In this document: one piece after another, positions 49 through 6,711 of the stretch
Position numbering within the stretch: position 1 is the first letter of the stretch
Layout of the letters: every line of letters begins with the position of its first letter
DNA from: a virus
DNA length: 24,354 nucleotides
IMG/VR virus record: IMGVR_UViG_3300048586_000149
Location: 1 to 24,354 of that record
Reading direction: 5' to 3' (one strand)
The notes under the pieces: generated by a model
What the model saw: only the letters and a program-made list of their open reading frames with translations
Told to the model about the DNA's origin: nothing
The model's database searches: none
Translations under genes and position numbers: made by a program

Positions 49-124
49 GGGCTGTTAGCTCAGTTGGTAGAGCAGTTGACTCTTAATCAATAGGTCGAAG
101 GTTCGAATCCTTCACAGCCCACCA
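49..124 (+). tRNA. tRNA-Lys, anticodon CTT
   Basis: A full cloverleaf can be drawn. The acceptor stem is GGGCTGT (49-55) paired with ACAGCCC (114-120), the D-arm contains AGCTCAGTTGGTAGAGC, the T-arm contains GGTTCGAATCC, and the encoded discriminator plus CCA is ACCA (121-124). The anticodon loop CTCTTAA gives anticodon CTT, which reads AAG (lysine). The sequence closely follows the known bacterial tRNA-Lys pattern. The gene is intact even though a prophage integrase lies 70 bases downstream, as expected when a phage integrates into a tRNA 3' end and restores it with its own copy of the core. Confidence 0.97.
85..124. other. Inferred prophage attachment site (integrase-proximal end) in the tRNA 3' half
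   Basis: The integrase gene ends 70 bases from the tRNA and is read toward it, the usual arrangement for tyrosine integrases that use the 3' half of a tRNA gene as attB. The second copy of the core would be at the other prophage end, which is not in the window. The exact core limits therefore cannot be set, and the given range is the typical anticodon-to-CCA portion. Confidence 0.4.
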
Positions 125-193: not shown

Positions 194-1345
194 TCACGGC
201 ATATCCGATGGTTTCACGACCGCCAGGCTGTGGTCGTAGACCTTCATCATGGCTTCGGTGACGCCGAGAGCTTGTTGCTTGTCGGCCTTGGTGCCGGCGG
301 TGTCGGTGCCGCCTTTGCGCTTGAGGTCGTGCAGGCTGAATCGCTGGTCTTCGGTGATGACCTGGTGCTCGACGCAACTGGCGATGAGCCGTTGCCAAGC
401 GCTATCGAGACCTGACTTGCTCAGCGGTTCGCCGTCTTCGCTGATGACCAGGAACCGGCGGTCGGCGTGGAGCTGTTCAGGTTGACGGCGTCTTTTGATG
501 ACAGCCGCCCGGTTGGCAAGCAGCGCGTCCCACGCAGCCCGGAGGCGCGGTGTCCACTCCACGATGTTGTTCTGGCTGCCCTTGCGGCGATCGGTGCGCA
601 GGCCGGCGACCTCTCCCTGGGCTTCAACCAGCGTATTGGTCTCGATGCCGCGCAGCCGGCACAGGTAGCCGATTTCGGCCACTGCCCACAGGTAGGGCGG
701 CACGGACCCCTTGCTGTGCGCCTTCAAGCCCGCACCGTGGCGTGCGTAGCCCACGACGGCGGCATACACGTCCGGTGCCGGCAACCTGCGCCGCTGGCGT
801 TCCTTGGCCTGCAGGATCCCGCGTGCGGGGTTGTCCTTGATGCCCAGATGCGGCCCGGCCCATTTGTAGACCCCCCGCAAATAGCGCAGCACGTGGTTCG
901 CCTTGGATGGCGTGCCCTGCTTGACGATCTTCTCGTGCATGGCCTGCACGTGGGGCTGGGCCAGGCGTGCCGCCACGAGCGCGCCGACCTTTATGCCCAG
1001 CTTGGTTGGGAAGTCCTGCACGATGGCACGGCAGACCTCATAGTCGCGCTTGGTAGCAGCCGCTAGACCTTTGAAATGGGTGCTGTCGTGGAACTTGGCC
1101 AGCATCCACTCCACGGTGCCGTGGGTGGGGCCGCCTTTGCCTTCCTCGACGAACCGGTGCAGGTCGGAGTTGCGGGCAGTGGGCCCGGCGATGGTTTCGC
1201 GGGCGGGCTTGCCTTCCTTGGTGACAAAGACGAACCAGCGGCCGTTGCCAGACGGATCCCAGTACACACCTGTCGGCAGCGCGGCCTGGTCGATGTGGCC
1301 CGGGATGCTGGGGTTGTGCTTACGGATGCGGCCGCGGGGTGGCAT
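194..1345 (-). CDS. int: Phage tyrosine recombinase (integrase)
   Basis: This 383-residue protein is the site-specific recombinase expected to insert the prophage into, and with an excisionase remove it from, the adjacent tRNA-Lys gene. The N-terminal part carries an arm-type/core-binding region. The catalytic half shows the first Arg in CRLRGIE, a beta-hairpin Lys region (DRRKGSQN), the SLHDLKRKG box and the nucleophile region VYDHS near the C-terminus. In the HxxR box the residue after HDL is Lys with Arg next to it, a variant I associate with a subgroup of proteobacterial prophage integrases. Its ATG overlaps the stop of the upstream gene (TAATG). It is the last gene of the leftward operon, so integrase would be made when that operon is expressed. 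Confidence 0.93.
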   Translation of the reverse strand: MPPRGRIRKHNPSIPGHIDQAALPTGVYWDPSGNGRWFVFVTKEGKPARETIAGPTARNSDLHRFVEEGKGGPTHGTVEWMLAKFHDSTHFKGLAAATKRDYEVCRAIVQDFPTKLGIKVGALVAARLAQPHVQAMHEKIVKQGTPSKANHVLRYLRGVYKWAGPHLGIKDNPARGILQAKERQRRRLPAPDVYAAVVGYARHGAGLKAHSKGSVPPYLWAVAEIGYLCRLRGIETNTLVEAQGEVAGLRTDRRKGSQNNIVEWTPRLRAAWDALLANRAAVIKRRRQPEQLHADRRFLVISEDGEPLSKSGLDSAWQRLIASCVEHQVITEDQRFSLHDLKRKGGTDTAGTKADKQQALGVTEAMMKVYDHSLAVVKPSDMP

Positions 1346-1830: not shown

Positions 1831-3807
1831 TCAGCCGGCCGCCTTCTTGGCCACGACCTTTTTGGCTGCCTTCTTCACGGCTTTCTTGGCGGCCTTCTTC
1901 GCCGCGGGTTTCTTGGCCGTTGGCTTCTTGGCTTTTGCCGGAGCATCGGCAACTGGCGCCGTGGCTTTCTTCTTGCCGTAGTCCGCGCCGCGCAGCAGCT
2001 TGGGCAGCCATCCGGTACCAGCCAGCAGTTTGCCGGCGGTGGCCACTCGCTCAGCCTTCTTCAGACCGGTGAGCGTGGCCGCCGCGTCCTTGCCCTTTGC
2101 TTCGGTAACGGCCTGCACGACCAGGTCGCCATGGATCCGGCCGAGGAAGTCATCGACCGTTGGATTCCAGTGGTCCGCCATGTCGAAGCCGACGATCTGG
2201 TGGATGTCCGCAACCGTTTCGTGGCCATCGCGGTAGGCGGTGATGCCGTCGAAGCTGTTGGCCACCAGCAACGCCAGAATATCCAGGCGCTGTGCATCAG
2301 TCTGTGCCATCAGCCATTGCAGCGTGTCGCGCTTGGGAATGGCGGACAGCTTCTTAACTTCATCTGCAAGCGCAGTGCGCACCGCCTTGTGCACGTCGGC
2401 TACCTTTGCGGCCTCACTGGTGCGGCCGGTGTCGATGCACACTCCGTTGCGGCCATAGGTGTTGGGCCAGTGGCTCTGCAGAAGTCGGTGGATCAGCAGG
2501 CACAGTGCCAACGTGGGGTCGCGGATGATGTGGAGCCGCGCCACTTCGCTGCGGTGTGCGGCCAGCGAAGTGCGAACGGCGTCGCTCAAATCGGCTTTCT
2601 TGGGCTTTTCCTGCTTGGCATTGGCGGCCGGTGCCCCGGATACCTTGCCGTCTTTACCGGCTTTTTCGCCAGGGCGGAGGCGTGCATAGCTGACATTTAG
2701 GCCGCTGTTGTCGGTGAACACTAGGACGCCTGATTTGCCTTTGACCTCATCCGGGTAGACCTGCACCATGCGATCGTCGATATCAGAAAGCTCAGCTTCA
2801 ATCCGCTGCAGTTCATCCTGGAGAGAGTTCTTTTCTTCCTCAGACAGACTGTCCTCATCGATGTCGTAGATCTCGGTCTGGCGCGCATCAAGCACGGCGT
2901 GGCGCGCTTCATCTTCAAGCGTGCCGAACAGTTCGGGCGGTTCTTGGCCCGCAAACAGCAGTCGCGGAAACTCGGCCCGCTCTTCATATGCCATGTTGAT
3001 GCGGGCCTCGGCCCACGACCAGCCCGCATCACGGTGCTGCTGTGCGATAGCTTCCAGCTTGTCCATTGCCAGGGAATCCAGCAATGCGAGATTGGTCAAG
3101 CGCACGTCGTCGTTGAACAGGTTGCGCTGCACGCGGCCGCCGGCGGATTCGTAGGCGTCCAAGCCCACGAAGGTGGCCAGCGCCTCGCCGGCGCCGATTG
3201 AATCGCGGGCAAGGTACTTGCGCAGCGCATGCGGTTGCCGCTCCCAGTCGCCGGCTGCGGTCTCCCACGCCTGGCGCTGCATTTCGTGGTTGTCGGTGCT
3301 GGCCAGCGCGACCAGCTGGTCGAGCGTCATGCCGTCTTCGCGGTACAGCTCAAACAGTTCCGGCCGCACGTTTGCCAGCTTGAGACGCTGCGCGATGTAT
3401 CGCGGGCTCTTGCCGAAGCGCGTGGCGATTTCGTCGACGGTGTTGCCGTCATCCACCAGGCGCTTGAACGCCACGAATTCATCGGCCGGATGCATGGCCA
3501 TGCGTATGATGTTGGCGCTGAGGCCCGCTTCCACGGCGTTGTCGGCATCGACGATCTTGCACGGCACCTCGCGCAGGGCGGCGGGAAGGCGGCCGTCTTC
3601 GTCCATCTGGTGCAGAGCGCGCAGGCGACGGCCGCCGTCCTCCACGTAGTACAGGCCATCGTTGCCGGCCGTCACCACCAGGTTGTTGAGCACGCCTTCC
3701 GCCTCAAGGCTGGCCATCAGGTCATCGATGTCGGTGCTGCCGGTCTTGCGGACGTTGCTGGGCGAAAAGCGCAGGTCTTGCAGGGCAATCTGTTGGATTT
3801 GGGTCAT
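1831..3807 (-). CDS. ParB-like DNA-binding protein with lysine/alanine-rich tail
   Basis: The 658-residue product starts with a ParB/Srx-type N-terminal domain (about residues 1-100, including EDGGRRLRAL and the conserved SANIIRMAMHP). A helix-turn-helix of the KorB/ParB kind follows (about 110-150, TVDEIATRFGKSPRYIAQRL). The middle is acidic and helical. The last 50 or so residues are repeats of KKAAKK, a histone-H1-like tail that should bind DNA non-specifically. No ParA partner is present in the window, so classical partition is unproven, and such proteins can also act as regulators or nucleases. The ATG overlaps the RT stop (ATGA) and is preceded by AGGAG, which couples it to the DGR. Confidence 0.85.
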   Translation of the reverse strand: MTQIQQIALQDLRFSPSNVRKTGSTDIDDLMASLEAEGVLNNLVVTAGNDGLYYVEDGGRRLRALHQMDEDGRLPAALREVPCKIVDADNAVEAGLSANIIRMAMHPADEFVAFKRLVDDGNTVDEIATRFGKSPRYIAQRLKLANVRPELFELYREDGMTLDQLVALASTDNHEMQRQAWETAAGDWERQPHALRKYLARDSIGAGEALATFVGLDAYESAGGRVQRNLFNDDVRLTNLALLDSLAMDKLEAIAQQHRDAGWSWAEARINMAYEERAEFPRLLFAGQEPPELFGTLEDEARHAVLDARQTEIYDIDEDSLSEEEKNSLQDELQRIEAELSDIDDRMVQVYPDEVKGKSGVLVFTDNSGLNVSYARLRPGEKAGKDGKVSGAPAANAKQEKPKKADLSDAVRTSLAAHRSEVARLHIIRDPTLALCLLIHRLLQSHWPNTYGRNGVCIDTGRTSEAAKVADVHKAVRTALADEVKKLSAIPKRDTLQWLMAQTDAQRLDILALLVANSFDGITAYRDGHETVADIHQIVGFDMADHWNPTVDDFLGRIHGDLVVQAVTEAKGKDAAATLTGLKKAERVATAGKLLAGTGWLPKLLRGADYGKKKATAPVADAPAKAKKPTAKKPAAKKAAKKAVKKAAKKVVAKKAAG

Positions 3808-5159
3808 GGTGTGCAGCTCCTATAGGGAATGGAAATGCGCCTGCCTTCCAGGCGGTGAGAGAAACGCCGCGGGAGTGCGGCGGCGGTGATCCAGGGAAAA
3901 CGGCTGTGCAGTGCCTGCTGCAGGCGGTGGCTGTTGGCGTGACGCAAGTGGCCCTGGTAGCTGGCAAGCACACTGCCGATGCGGCGGAAGTCGTCAGGCG
4001 TGCCCTGCAGCTGGTCGCCGCGCACGTGATCGCGTTCCCATGCCTGCAGGGTTTCGCGTGCATGCACCACCACGCGACGGCGTGCCAGCGTGTGCGTGGG
4101 GTGGATGACGTAGCCGAGGAAGTCGATGCCGTCGCCCAGCGGGCGCAGCCTGATGTCCGCCTTCAATGCCAGGCGCAGGTGAGCGTGCAGGAACTGCTCG
4201 ATGCGCGCTTGCCAGCTGGCCAGCTGTGCGCGGTCGTGGTGCACCAGCACGAAGTCATCCACGTACCGCAGGTAGCGAGTGGCCTTGAGCTCGTGCTTGA
4301 CGAACTGGTCCAGCGCGTCCAGGTATACGTTGGCGAAGAACTGGCTGGACAGGTTGCCGATGGGCAGGCCGAAGCCGGCAGGCGCATTGCACAGCCGCTT
4401 GTGCGCCGGCACCGCGGCCAGTTCCTCTGGCGTGGCACGCAGATCCACGCCGGCACGCACGGGGTCACGGCGCAGCAGCGCATGCGTGACGTGCTGGGCT
4501 TCGGCGCCGATGCCAGCACGCTGCAGGACGGGCTTCAGGTGCGCCCACAGCGTGGGACGGTGGATGCTGTTGAAGAAGTTGGCGATATCCAACTGCAGGT
4601 AGTAGCCGCCGCGTTGACCGCTGTGCACCTGGCGCACGAACGCCTGCAGCCTGCGCACGGCGGCATGACTGCCCTTGCCGACACGGTTGGCGTAGCTGTC
4701 GTGGATGAAGCGCGGTTCGTAGATGGCTTCCAGCTGCGGCACCAGCCAGTGGTGCACGACGCGGTCGGCGAAGTCCGGTGCGTGGATCTCGCGGGCCTTG
4801 GGGCGCGTGGCGATGAAACAGGTGGAACGGCGTGGAGCCCAGGTGTTGCTCTGGATCTGCGCCTGCAGGTGCAGCAGGCCATCCATCCAGCGGCTGTCGA
4901 AGCGCAGCTGGTTGTGGCTGGGCACTTTCTGCCGGCGCGCACGACGCCAGGCACGGTAGAGCGATTGCAGCGGTACAGCCCCCTGAAACTCACTGGCACG
5001 ACGCACGGCCAACGCGAACCCGTTGTTGTTGCGGTGGTTGTTGTTGACGTTGCCGTTGTTGAAATTGACGTTCCACGCGGACGCCGAAGACCAGGCAGCC
5101 GCTTCCCCGCGCTCTTGCGACCCAGCCGCACATCCGTGTTGGTAGCGTGGCGTCGTCAT
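3804..5159 (-). CDS. Reverse transcriptase of a diversity-generating retroelement
   Basis: A 451-residue RT. It shows QLDIANFFNSIH (first catalytic Asp, D191), GLPIGNLSSQ (264-273), YVDD (299-302; two catalytic Asp) and FLGY (347-350). The IGxxxSQ motif in place of the QGxxxSP of group II introns marks DGR-type enzymes. It would copy the TR RNA into cDNA with errors at adenines. The chosen ATG (5157-5159) overlaps the avd stop (ATGA). Starting there, residues 20-56 are encoded by the template repeat itself, giving an Asn-rich N-terminal arm, and the RT fold begins directly after it (SLYRAWRRAR, 67-76). A start inside or just after the TR (for example the GTG of AVRRAS) is possible, but I see no good ribosome site there. 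The stop overlaps the ParB-like gene (ATGA). Confidence 0.95.
   Translation of the reverse strand: MTTPRYQHGCAAGSQERGEAAAWSSASAWNVNFNNGNVNNNHRNNNGFALAVRRASEFQGAVPLQSLYRAWRRARRQKVPSHNQLRFDSRWMDGLLHLQAQIQSNTWAPRRSTCFIATRPKAREIHAPDFADRVVHHWLVPQLEAIYEPRFIHDSYANRVGKGSHAAVRRLQAFVRQVHSGQRGGYYLQLDIANFFNSIHRPTLWAHLKPVLQRAGIGAEAQHVTHALLRRDPVRAGVDLRATPEELAAVPAHKRLCNAPAGFGLPIGNLSSQFFANVYLDALDQFVKHELKATRYLRYVDDFVLVHHDRAQLASWQARIEQFLHAHLRLALKADIRLRPLGDGIDFLGYVIHPTHTLARRRVVVHARETLQAWERDHVRGDQLQGTPDDFRRIGSVLASYQGHLRHANSHRLQQALHSRFPWITAAALPRRFSHRLEGRRISIPYRSCTP
4992..5101 (-). repeat. DGR template repeat (TR)
   Basis: This 110-bp segment is the non-varying master copy. On the coding strand, 23 adenines are packed into a 50-base block (5023-5072), flanked by 29 bases without A on one side (5073-5101) and 28 bases without A on the other (4995-5022). 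The block encodes twelve AAY or CAC codons (Asn x11, His x1), with every A at codon position 1 or 2. It aligns without gaps to VR1 (offset 637) and VR2 (offset 1096). It lies within the RT frame and shares the reading frame of the VRs. The A-free stretch at the low-coordinate end, finishing in GTGCCAGT, is the likely template copy of the initiation-of-mutagenic-homology site. Confidence 0.95.
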
Positions 5160-5599
5160 TGATTGGCCCCCGTGGAGGCGGCGCAGGTACTCAGTTTCTT
5201 GCCACGCTGCACGACGGCATTGCTGCCTGATGCACTCTGGGCTTGGGGGTTGGCGAACTGCCGGCGCCATCCGCCGGCTTGTGCACCCAGGCCGTGCGCC
5301 TGGCGTGCCAATTCTTCGAACTGGGCAAAGCTGTTGAACGCATGCAGCAGCTTCGCCGTCTGCATGTACTGCTTCAGCTCATCTATGGCCCACACCAGCT
5401 GTTCCACCCACCGCCGTTGGTGTGCACGGTCGCGCCATGCACGGCTGGCCACGCGGTAGACCGACATGGCCTGCGTGCGCAGGTCCGCGCCGATCTGGTA
5501 GCGGTGGTAGCGAGGAAAGCGGCGCACCGCGTTCTCGATATCCACAAGCAAGCGCTCGGCGGCCTTGACGATGGGTGGGAGCTGGAAACGTGAGGGCAT
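5156..5599 (-). CDS. avd: Avd-like DGR accessory protein
   Basis: A 147-residue, Arg-rich, mostly helical protein encoded between the last target gene and the RT, the position of avd in the Bordetella phage BPP-1 retroelement. The helices run about 5-25 (VKAAERLLVDIENAVRRFP), 33-57 (YQIGADLRTQAMSVYRVASR), 60-85 and 86-105, matching the four-helix-bundle pattern of the bAvd/S23-like family. Avd forms a pentamer that binds the RT and the TR RNA and is needed for cDNA synthesis in the characterised system; that role is inferred here. The last 40 residues are low-complexity and probably reflect constraint as part of the TR RNA. The stop overlaps the RT start (ATGA). No strong ribosome site precedes the ATG. 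Confidence 0.88.
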   Translation of the reverse strand: MPSRFQLPPIVKAAERLLVDIENAVRRFPRYHRYQIGADLRTQAMSVYRVASRAWRDRAHQRRWVEQLVWAIDELKQYMQTAKLLHAFNSFAQFEELARQAHGLGAQAGGWRRQFANPQAQSASGSNAVVQRGKKLSTCAASTGANQ

Positions 5600-5622: not shown

Positions 5623-6048
5623 TTACTGACTGGCACGACGCACGGCCAACGCGAACCCGAGGCTGGAGCGGCGGAAGCTGCTGACGTAGCCGTAGCTGAA
5701 ATCGACGAACCACGCGGACGCCGAAGACCAGGCAGCCGGCGTCTTCGACCAGTACCAATCGCTCTGGATGTTGGTGAAGAAGTCGGTGTTGATGGCCGGC
5801 TGGTAGCGCGTGCGATCGATGAGCAGCTGCAGCTCTTCGATGGTGGGCAGATCCCAGTCGGTCTTGCCCAGCAGGTCGAGTGCACTGGCGCGTGCCTGCA
5901 GGTCTTCCTGGGACTCTTCTTCTTCGTTGATCTGGGTGGCGCTGAATTGCAAGCCAAGGCCGGCAACTTCCACTGCAACCCATTCGATGGCGTCGTTGGG
6001 CAGCGGCTGGCCGTCGGCGCCGATTTTGATGAGGGTGATAGGTGACAT
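5623..6048 (-). CDS. DGR target protein 1 (DUF1566/C-type-lectin-like, variable C-terminus)
   Basis: The 141-residue product has an N-terminal part (1-60) with an acidic stretch NEEEESQEDL and no signal peptide. A shortened DUF1566 (Lcl C-terminal) domain follows, with the core WDLPTIEELQLLID (65-78), PAINTDFF and WYWSKTPAAW. Residues 104-140 are encoded by VR1; the variable residues lie between SASAW and GFALAVRRAS, ending four bases before the stop. This fold displays randomised side chains on a rigid scaffold in known DGR targets. I chose ATG 6048 because AGGAG lies 7 bases before it; an upstream in-frame Met (6081) would run into the preceding gene. The C-terminal domain is paralogous to target protein 2. 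The ligand is unknown. Confidence 0.9.
   Translation of the reverse strand: MSPITLIKIGADGQPLPNDAIEWVAVEVAGLGLQFSATQINEEEESQEDLQARASALDLLGKTDWDLPTIEELQLLIDRTRYQPAINTDFFTNIQSDWYWSKTPAAWSSASAWFVDFSYGYVSSFRRSSLGFALAVRRASQ
5629..5738 (-). repeat. DGR variable repeat 1 (VR1)
   Basis: This is a gap-free 110-bp copy of the TR. It differs at 16 positions, all of which are A in the coding-strand TR (A to T 8, A to G 6, A to C 2). The two A-free flanks are identical to the TR. Translation of the variable block replaces Asn/His codons by Phe, Asp, Ser, Tyr, Leu and Arg. Beyond the TR-matching end, VR1 and VR2 share eight further bases that the TR lacks (AATTACTG on the plus strand, 5621-5628). Confidence 0.96.
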
Positions 6049-6081
6049 GGTGATGCTCCTGTTGATGATCAAAAAGGCCAA

Positions 6082-6711
6082 TTACTGACTGGCACGACGC
6101 ACGGCCAACGCGAACCCGTCGCTGTTGCGGGGGTTGCTGCCGACGACGCCGTTGTCGAAACCGACGCCCCACGCGGACGCCGAAGACCAGGCAGCCGGTG
6201 TGCTGGTCCAGTGCCAGCGCGGCTTGACGTGAGGGAAGAGGCTCACGTCGATTGCGGGCTCGTGGCGCGTGTCGTCGACCAGGTCGGCGAGTTCGGTGCG
6301 GGTGGGCAAGCGCCAGTCGTCGTAGCCCAGCAGGCGCAGCTGCTTGCAGCGTTCGATGCAATGCTCCTGGGTGATGCCGTCGTTTTCGTCAGACGGGTCG
6401 CCGAGAGATTCGACGGACCACATCAGACCGGTGCTGTGATCGATCACGGCGAAGTGGTCGGTGCGGTCGCTGTCGGCGGGCAGGTGCAGGCCTTCAGCGG
6501 TGACCTTGGTGAAGGCGGTGCGGATGCGTTCACCAGGCTGCAGGATGGCCGGCACTTCGTCCGGCCGCAGTCCGGCGATGCCGCCGCTGTGGTAGCGCAC
6601 CGCGGCGTTGTAGTCCGCCGGTCCCGGCAGTGCTTTGGTGATGCCGGCGGCAAGCGTTGCCAGCTGTGGCGCAAACAGGTTGCCGGCGACGTGGATGGTG
6701 ATCTGGTTCAT
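6082..6711 (-). CDS. DGR target protein 2 (tape-measure-like motif plus DUF1566, variable C-terminus)
   Basis: A 209-residue protein. Residues 42-61 (from SGGIAGLRPDEVPAILQPGE) resemble a Gly-rich DEVPAxLxxGE motif that I know from the C-terminal ends of phage tape-measure and minor tail proteins. From about residue 86 there is a complete DUF1566 domain: IDHSTGLMWSVE, a Cys-containing helix, GYDDWRLPTRTELADLVD (129-146), PAIDVSLFP and WHWTSTPAAW. Residues 173-208 are encoded by VR2. No signal peptide is seen. AAGGAG lies 7 bases before the ATG. The N-terminal motif suggests attachment to, or descent from, a virion tail component, but tail assembly is not shown. It is encoded 33 bases upstream of target protein 1 and is the first gene of the DGR block. 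Confidence 0.9.
   Translation of the reverse strand: MNQITIHVAGNLFAPQLATLAAGITKALPGPADYNAAVRYHSGGIAGLRPDEVPAILQPGERIRTAFTKVTAEGLHLPADSDRTDHFAVIDHSTGLMWSVESLGDPSDENDGITQEHCIERCKQLRLLGYDDWRLPTRTELADLVDDTRHEPAIDVSLFPHVKPRWHWTSTPAAWSSASAWGVGFDNGVVGSNPRNSDGFALAVRRASQ
6088..6197 (-). repeat. DGR variable repeat 2 (VR2)
   Basis: This is a gap-free 110-bp copy of the TR with 13 differences, all at coding-strand template adenines (A to G 11, A to T 1, A to C 1). The flanks match the TR exactly. Sites changed in VR1 and VR2 only partly coincide; 20 of the 23 block adenines are altered in at least one copy. The variable block reads Gly, Gly, Asp, Val, Gly, Ser, Pro, Ser and Asp at changed codons, with Asn kept at three. 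Confidence 0.96.

Follow-up and report, generated by a model that had tools for sequence, protein, structure and literature searches.

The block at positions 5023 to 5072 of the window (the whole 24,354-base virus record analyzed here) is very probably the A-rich core of the template repeat (TR) of an avd-bearing phage diversity-generating retroelement (DGR) that diversifies two Lcl_C proteins; the TR would itself be translated within a disordered N-terminal tail of the reverse transcriptase (RT), with an RNA domain folded around it. The codon design of the block is correct as first noted and has already been explained in print; less usual are the reading of the TR inside the RT gene and a conserved RNA fold that extends over two genes. 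The evidence for the mechanism is comparative and comprises A-specific divergence between the TR and its variable repeats (VRs), a stop-free TR, a shared open frame, an upstream start preceded by a GRGG motif, and covarying helices.

Organization of the DGR and its target genes

All features lie on the minus strand unless indicated otherwise. The RT gene (3804 to 5159, 451 amino acids) encodes a DGR-type enzyme (PHROG 1423, 1.2e-93), whose best PDB match is the bRT of Bordetella phage BPP-1 (8ub7, 2.2e-35), and its ATG (5159 to 5157) overlaps the stop codon of avd (accessory variability determinant, 5156 to 5599) as ATGA. The product of avd was recognized as a BPP-1-type accessory protein by PHROG 3206 (3.9e-17), while the Pfam bAvd match (5.6e-5) falls under the cut-off of that family. 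The TR (4992 to 5101), defined as the span over which TR and VR are identical except at A positions, lies in frame at RT codons 20 to 56; in the AlphaFold model, residues 1 to 59 have pLDDT values below 50 and are followed by a good RT, and the TR-coded tail is predicted to be disordered.

Two genes carry copies of the TR at their 3' ends: target gene 1 (5623 to 6051; Lcl_C [DUF1566] domain, Pfam 3.8e-20) contains VR1 (5625 to 5738), a copy in register with the TR, and target gene 2 (6082 to 6711; Lcl_C [DUF1566] domain, Pfam 1e-25) contains VR2 (6084 to 6197). Within the homology, both VRs differ from the TR at adenine positions only, with 16 of the 23 adenines changed in VR1, 13 of 23 in VR2, and no non-A mismatch, as expected of a DGR. 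The position of the VRs at the 3' end of genes with a C-type-lectin-like fold is equally typical; the model of target 2 is nearest to the C-terminal domain of Legionella Lcl (8q4e; Z of 7.6, root mean square deviation of 3.6, 101 aligned residues), compared with a Z of about 5 for ordinary C-type lectins, and a plain Foldseek search with this model gave no match at an E value of 0.001. Residues from about 29 to 64 of target 2 resemble a near-C-terminal stretch of phage tape-measure proteins (PHROG 2335; PDB 8vjh, chain Q).

At the other end of the window, a tRNA-Lys (CTT; 49 to 124, plus strand) directly adjoins a phage integrase gene (194 to 1345, minus strand), as expected of an attachment site. 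Among the 12 records listed of 35 in the phage collection, the window DNA gave only short matches, located at its tRNA; among plasmids, nothing reached 60% identity to the RT.

Sampling of relatives and clade-wide substitutions

When the window RT alone was used to query genome contigs, only two distant loci were recovered. To collect relatives, IMG/VR was scanned with an alignment of the RT domain that left out the TR, and the best 80 of 487 confirmed loci (RT identity, 58 to 94%) were retained. Of these 80, 76 yielded a TR and VR; three of the remaining loci (L024, L034, and L072) are truncated by the end of their contig, and L077, the fourth, likewise extends to a contig end. In L077 (1 to 324), the RT and a lectin VR form one in-frame fusion, and avd, the leader, and the TR are absent, which reflects either recombination between VR and TR or an assembly collapse at the contig end.

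Substitutions were counted in 76 TRs and 135 TR-VR pairs, i.e., the relatives minus L023 plus the window, all from these best 80 of 487 loci. They comprise 1,908 changes at A and 42 others, 30 of the latter being G to C. Changes at adenine are uneven in direction (A to G, 1,067; A to T, 592; A to C, 249). Of 54 copies, 2 carry a change at the first adenine outside the block.

Codon design of the template block

The 50-nt block (5072 to 5023) contains 23 adenines and reads NVNFNNGNVNNNHRNNN. Its 17 codons (5072 to 5022) include, as the initial annotation had stated, 12 mutable ones, 11 AAY and 1 CAC, which alternate with A-free codons; the count confirmed that the adenines occupy codon positions 1 and 2 alone (0 of 23 at position 3), and a search of the block for mutable codons ending in A or G, which would have contradicted that description, found none. 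Only three sense codons (AAA, AAG, and AGA) can be converted to a stop by substitution of A. One-by-one enumeration of the A-substituted codons yielded 0 stops and 3.46e13 protein variants, so the claim that mutation cannot create a stop here holds. The block is bordered by A-free flanks of 30 nt on its 5' side and 28 nt on its 3' side, which are immutable because they lack A on the coding strand, again as proposed; the 3' length had been given correctly, whereas the 5' flank had been put at 29 nt, a figure that probably derives from the 29 nt of TR/VR homology inside the 5' A-free run (5101 to 5073). A-free runs of at least 28 nt occur twice in the 14,910 nt of 12 window genes.

How unusual this composition is depends on the feature that is counted. 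Against the A-containing codons of the same 12 genes, the probability that none of 12 codons is stop capable is 0.29, which is unsurprising on its own; the corresponding values are 0.017 for the lack of A at position 3 among 23 adenines, 3e-4 for a pyrimidine at the end of all 12 codons, and 3e-5 for every one of 11 AAN codons being AAY. Asn codons end in a pyrimidine automatically, and AAY may have been chosen for amino-acid breadth, with the absence of stops a side effect rather than a selected trait; we regard this as quite conceivable, although it is not the reading we favor. The chance value of 0.29 suits it, as does the retention of AAG or AAA in 7 of the 76 TRs (window plus 75 relatives, from the best 80 of 487 loci). 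It is less easily reconciled with the frequency of AAA and AAG, 7 of the 939 A-containing codons in TRs versus 235 of 2,390 in the window genes. AAC and AAT together account for 766 of those 939 codons, and 69 of the 76 TRs have no stop-capable codon. Stop avoidance, which had been presented as the design of the block, thus holds in the window but is a strong preference rather than a rule in the clade, since seven TRs depart from it. A-free flanks are likewise not universal, a 5' A-free run of at least 19 nt being present in 47 of the 76 TRs. The principle of stop-avoiding TR codons is already set out in PMC6328139, PMC12875486, and PMC4891356.

The TR lies in the RT reading frame

Comparison across the clade indicates that the TR is an in-frame part of the RT gene, read in the same frame as in the lectin targets. 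The RT start could be judged in 78 loci, the window and 77 of the 80 relatives (L034, L072, and L077 were not judgeable), and both the start and the TR in 77. In 77 of the 78 loci the RT start overlaps the avd stop as ATGA or GTGA (75 ATG, 2 GTG), and in the remaining one as TGATG; a Shine-Dalgarno-like GRGG (GGGG or GAGG) stands 7 to 8 nt ahead of it in all 78. Downstream of this start, the frame stays open as far as the RT domain in all 77 loci, compared with 0 of 77 for the +1 frame and 1 of 77 for the +2 frame. The leader plus 5' arm occurs in 12 different lengths, as does the 3' arm plus linker, and the TR and RT share a frame in every locus except L023. The VR frame equals the RT frame through the TR in 129 of 136 VRs; two of the seven exceptions come from L023, and the other five were judged to be open reading frames cut by the edge of the stretch.

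One could suppose instead an ordinary BPP-1-like DGR whose RT starts after the TR, or at a GTG or TTG in the 3' arm, with the open frame a by-product of stop avoidance. The BPP-1 brt start does lie after its TR, the TR is stop free in the VR frame anyway, and the 3' arm of the window has an in-frame TTG and GTG, a pair also found in L006 and L007. Such a start would, however, leave unexplained why the frame that begins at the avd stop stays open in every locus despite the 12 lengths on either side of the TR, and why GRGG precedes that start throughout; furthermore, no ATG, GTG, or TTG occurs between the TR and the RT domain in 27 of 77 loci, and 5 of 77 lack any such codon from the TR start onward. 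In L070 (3731 to 3855), the avd stop and the RT start are shifted downstream together with a new GRGG ahead of the start, whereas the RNA fold has not moved. We therefore consider a start downstream of the avd stop improbable and retain translation through the TR as the preferred reading. It counts against nesting that a Thr-rich alternative frame of a TR can also be open. Such a frame is used in L023 (3725 to 3990), where two compensating frameshifts cause the TR to be read as a Thr-rich peptide while the frame from the start to the RT remains open; the usual TR-coded peptide is lost there and so seems dispensable. The dN/dS ratios (leader, 0.40; linker, 0.25) fit coding, but the leader value is no clean proof of it because the leader must also satisfy an RNA fold.

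A covarying RNA fold surrounds the TR

Covariation points to an RNA fold that encloses the TR, with a three-way junction before it and a helix, P0, around it. The junction (5106 to 5187) consists of helices P1 (5187-5181/5112-5106), formed between the 3' end of avd and the RT codons immediately preceding the TR; P2 (5179-5176/5169-5166), whose 3' strand is the GRGG motif; and P3 (5150-5149 and 5146-5145/5131-5130 and 5127-5126). The RT start and avd stop are located between P2 and P3, and GRGG forms the P2 3' strand in nearly all loci, the exception being L070 with its displaced start. RNAalifold gave a z score of -8.9 for the avd end plus leader relative to column shuffles. Among 53 sequences, 98.4% of 795 cells are paired in the junction helices, compared with 22 to 55% when the helices are slid as controls, and double changes occupy 102 cells in 11 of the 15 pairs, a level reached by 0 of 500 shuffles.

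P0 was first suggested by co-folding of the leader with downstream parts; the region downstream of the TR yielded no structure when folded alone. Its 5' strand (GAAACT; 5193 to 5198) belongs to the avd 3' end, and its 3' strand (AGTTTC; 4985 to 4990) lies inside the RT gene, starting 2 nt past the TR end. In the 77 loci, 459 of 462 cells (99.4%) are paired, compared with 13 to 52% in slid controls. The consensus joins GAxACT in avd to AGTyTC 2 nt after the TR, and the x-y combination is A-T in 40 loci, C-G in 18, T-A in 11, T-G in 5, G-C in 2, and T-C in 1; mapping on an RT tree showed 16 events in which both strands changed along the same branch. Because of this pairing, RT residue 58 follows a base in avd.

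A covariance model trained on 27 sequences recovered 52 of the 54 loci outside its training set, each where it was expected, and missed only L034 and L077; the 54 include loci nearly identical to some used for training. The model hit 0 of 15 loci outside the clade. Rfam detected only the tRNA across the window, and the window and seven relatives gave no match to any DGR-related Rfam family. Conservation of the leader might alternatively reflect its peptide, a functional N-terminal RT domain, rather than RNA, an explanation to which the leader dN/dS and an excess at codon position 3 (P = 0.03) lend some color. It is hard to square with the pLDDT values below 50 over residues 1 to 59, with L023, which retains an RNA score of 101.6 bits while reading another frame, and with residue 58, which varies among F, C, Y, S, and N alongside the P0 covariation; we judge it very unlikely and take the RNA fold to be what is conserved.

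Proposed mechanism

As in BPP-1, Avd-RT would reverse transcribe the TR RNA, inserting nucleotides at random opposite A, and the resulting cDNA would replace VR1 or VR2. The AAY codons would permit a broad choice of amino acids without stops, and the A-free arms would keep homology and scaffold constant. Stop avoidance would protect the targets and would also spare the RT if the TR were ever rewritten. The TR frame is presumably translated in reality, and the fold may recruit or position RT-Avd.

More tentatively, and as a possibility rather than our expectation, one RNA may serve as both RT message and template. The avd-RT fold would hide GRGG and the start codon, so that translation of the RT would depend on ribosomes leaving avd; since P0 and the junction span the RT start region, ribosomes that translate avd would open the fold and, on finishing avd, switch to the RT. 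An RNA left idle would become the mutagenic template, with each RNA acting as either mRNA or template and P0 marking the template edges. The nested TR and its covarying RNA offer another, independent look at the parts that a DGR RNA requires. They also allow direct tests of how RT-Avd locates its template, what sets the cDNA ends, and how one RNA can be both translated and reverse transcribed.

Comparison with known systems

The DGR of BPP-1 (mtd-avd-TR-brt) shares with the window the order target-avd-TR-RT, A-specific TR/VR divergence, and even the number of adenines in the detected TR/VR match (23). However, the BPP-1 TR lies outside brt and in a frame other than that of the RT, an arrangement that sequence comparison did not find in the window, where the TR appears inside the RT gene. 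The RNA differs too: that of BPP-1 (Rfam Phage_DGR) occupies the spacer that separates the TR from brt on the 3' side of the TR, whereas the window fold is mostly 5' of the TR and embedded in two genes; the Phage_DGR spacer model (RF03022) matches BPP-1 itself but gave no match in the window. In single-sequence folds, the hairpins after VR1 and VR2 looked weak, and a GC-rich hairpin with a GRNA loop as in BPP-1 was not evident. According to PMC12875486, bRT-Avd is recruited in BPP-1 by the structured spacer 3' of the TR, which also primes the cDNA, and synthesis is terminated by a motif in the avd 3' end; P0 and the junction may take over these jobs from the 5' side.

In three phage DGRs (L087, 3206 to 3382; L089, 3230 to 3412; L096, 2690 to 2882), the Rfam RNA RT-15 (RF03018) occupies the stretch that separates avd from the TR, and for this reason it looks like a DGR RNA. 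The DGRs of Haboob, Magia, and Cruim01 with RT-15 resemble the window in having a structured RNA 5' of the TR, but their TR is in a frame other than that of the RT, and RT-15 gave no match in the window or seven relatives even at an E value of 1.

Overlap of TR and RT, as in the window, is also seen in DGR group 3 of Schillinger et al., a class drawn from annotation, whose section in that paper mentions neither frame nor RNA fold. The literature searched contained no description of a TR that is translated in frame and closed by a covarying helix, an absence that carries little weight, as most subscription papers lay outside the search. Thirteen named phage records were compared; 10, including BPP-1, do not have the TR within the RT gene and read in the frame of the VR. 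Although their TR-coded peptide is of another type and the RNA model of the window clade does not match them, the other three, Vibrio phage VP58.5, Pseudoalteromonas phage ACA1, and Aeromonas phage phiARM81mr, do show this arrangement with respect to their annotated RT genes, as the window does.
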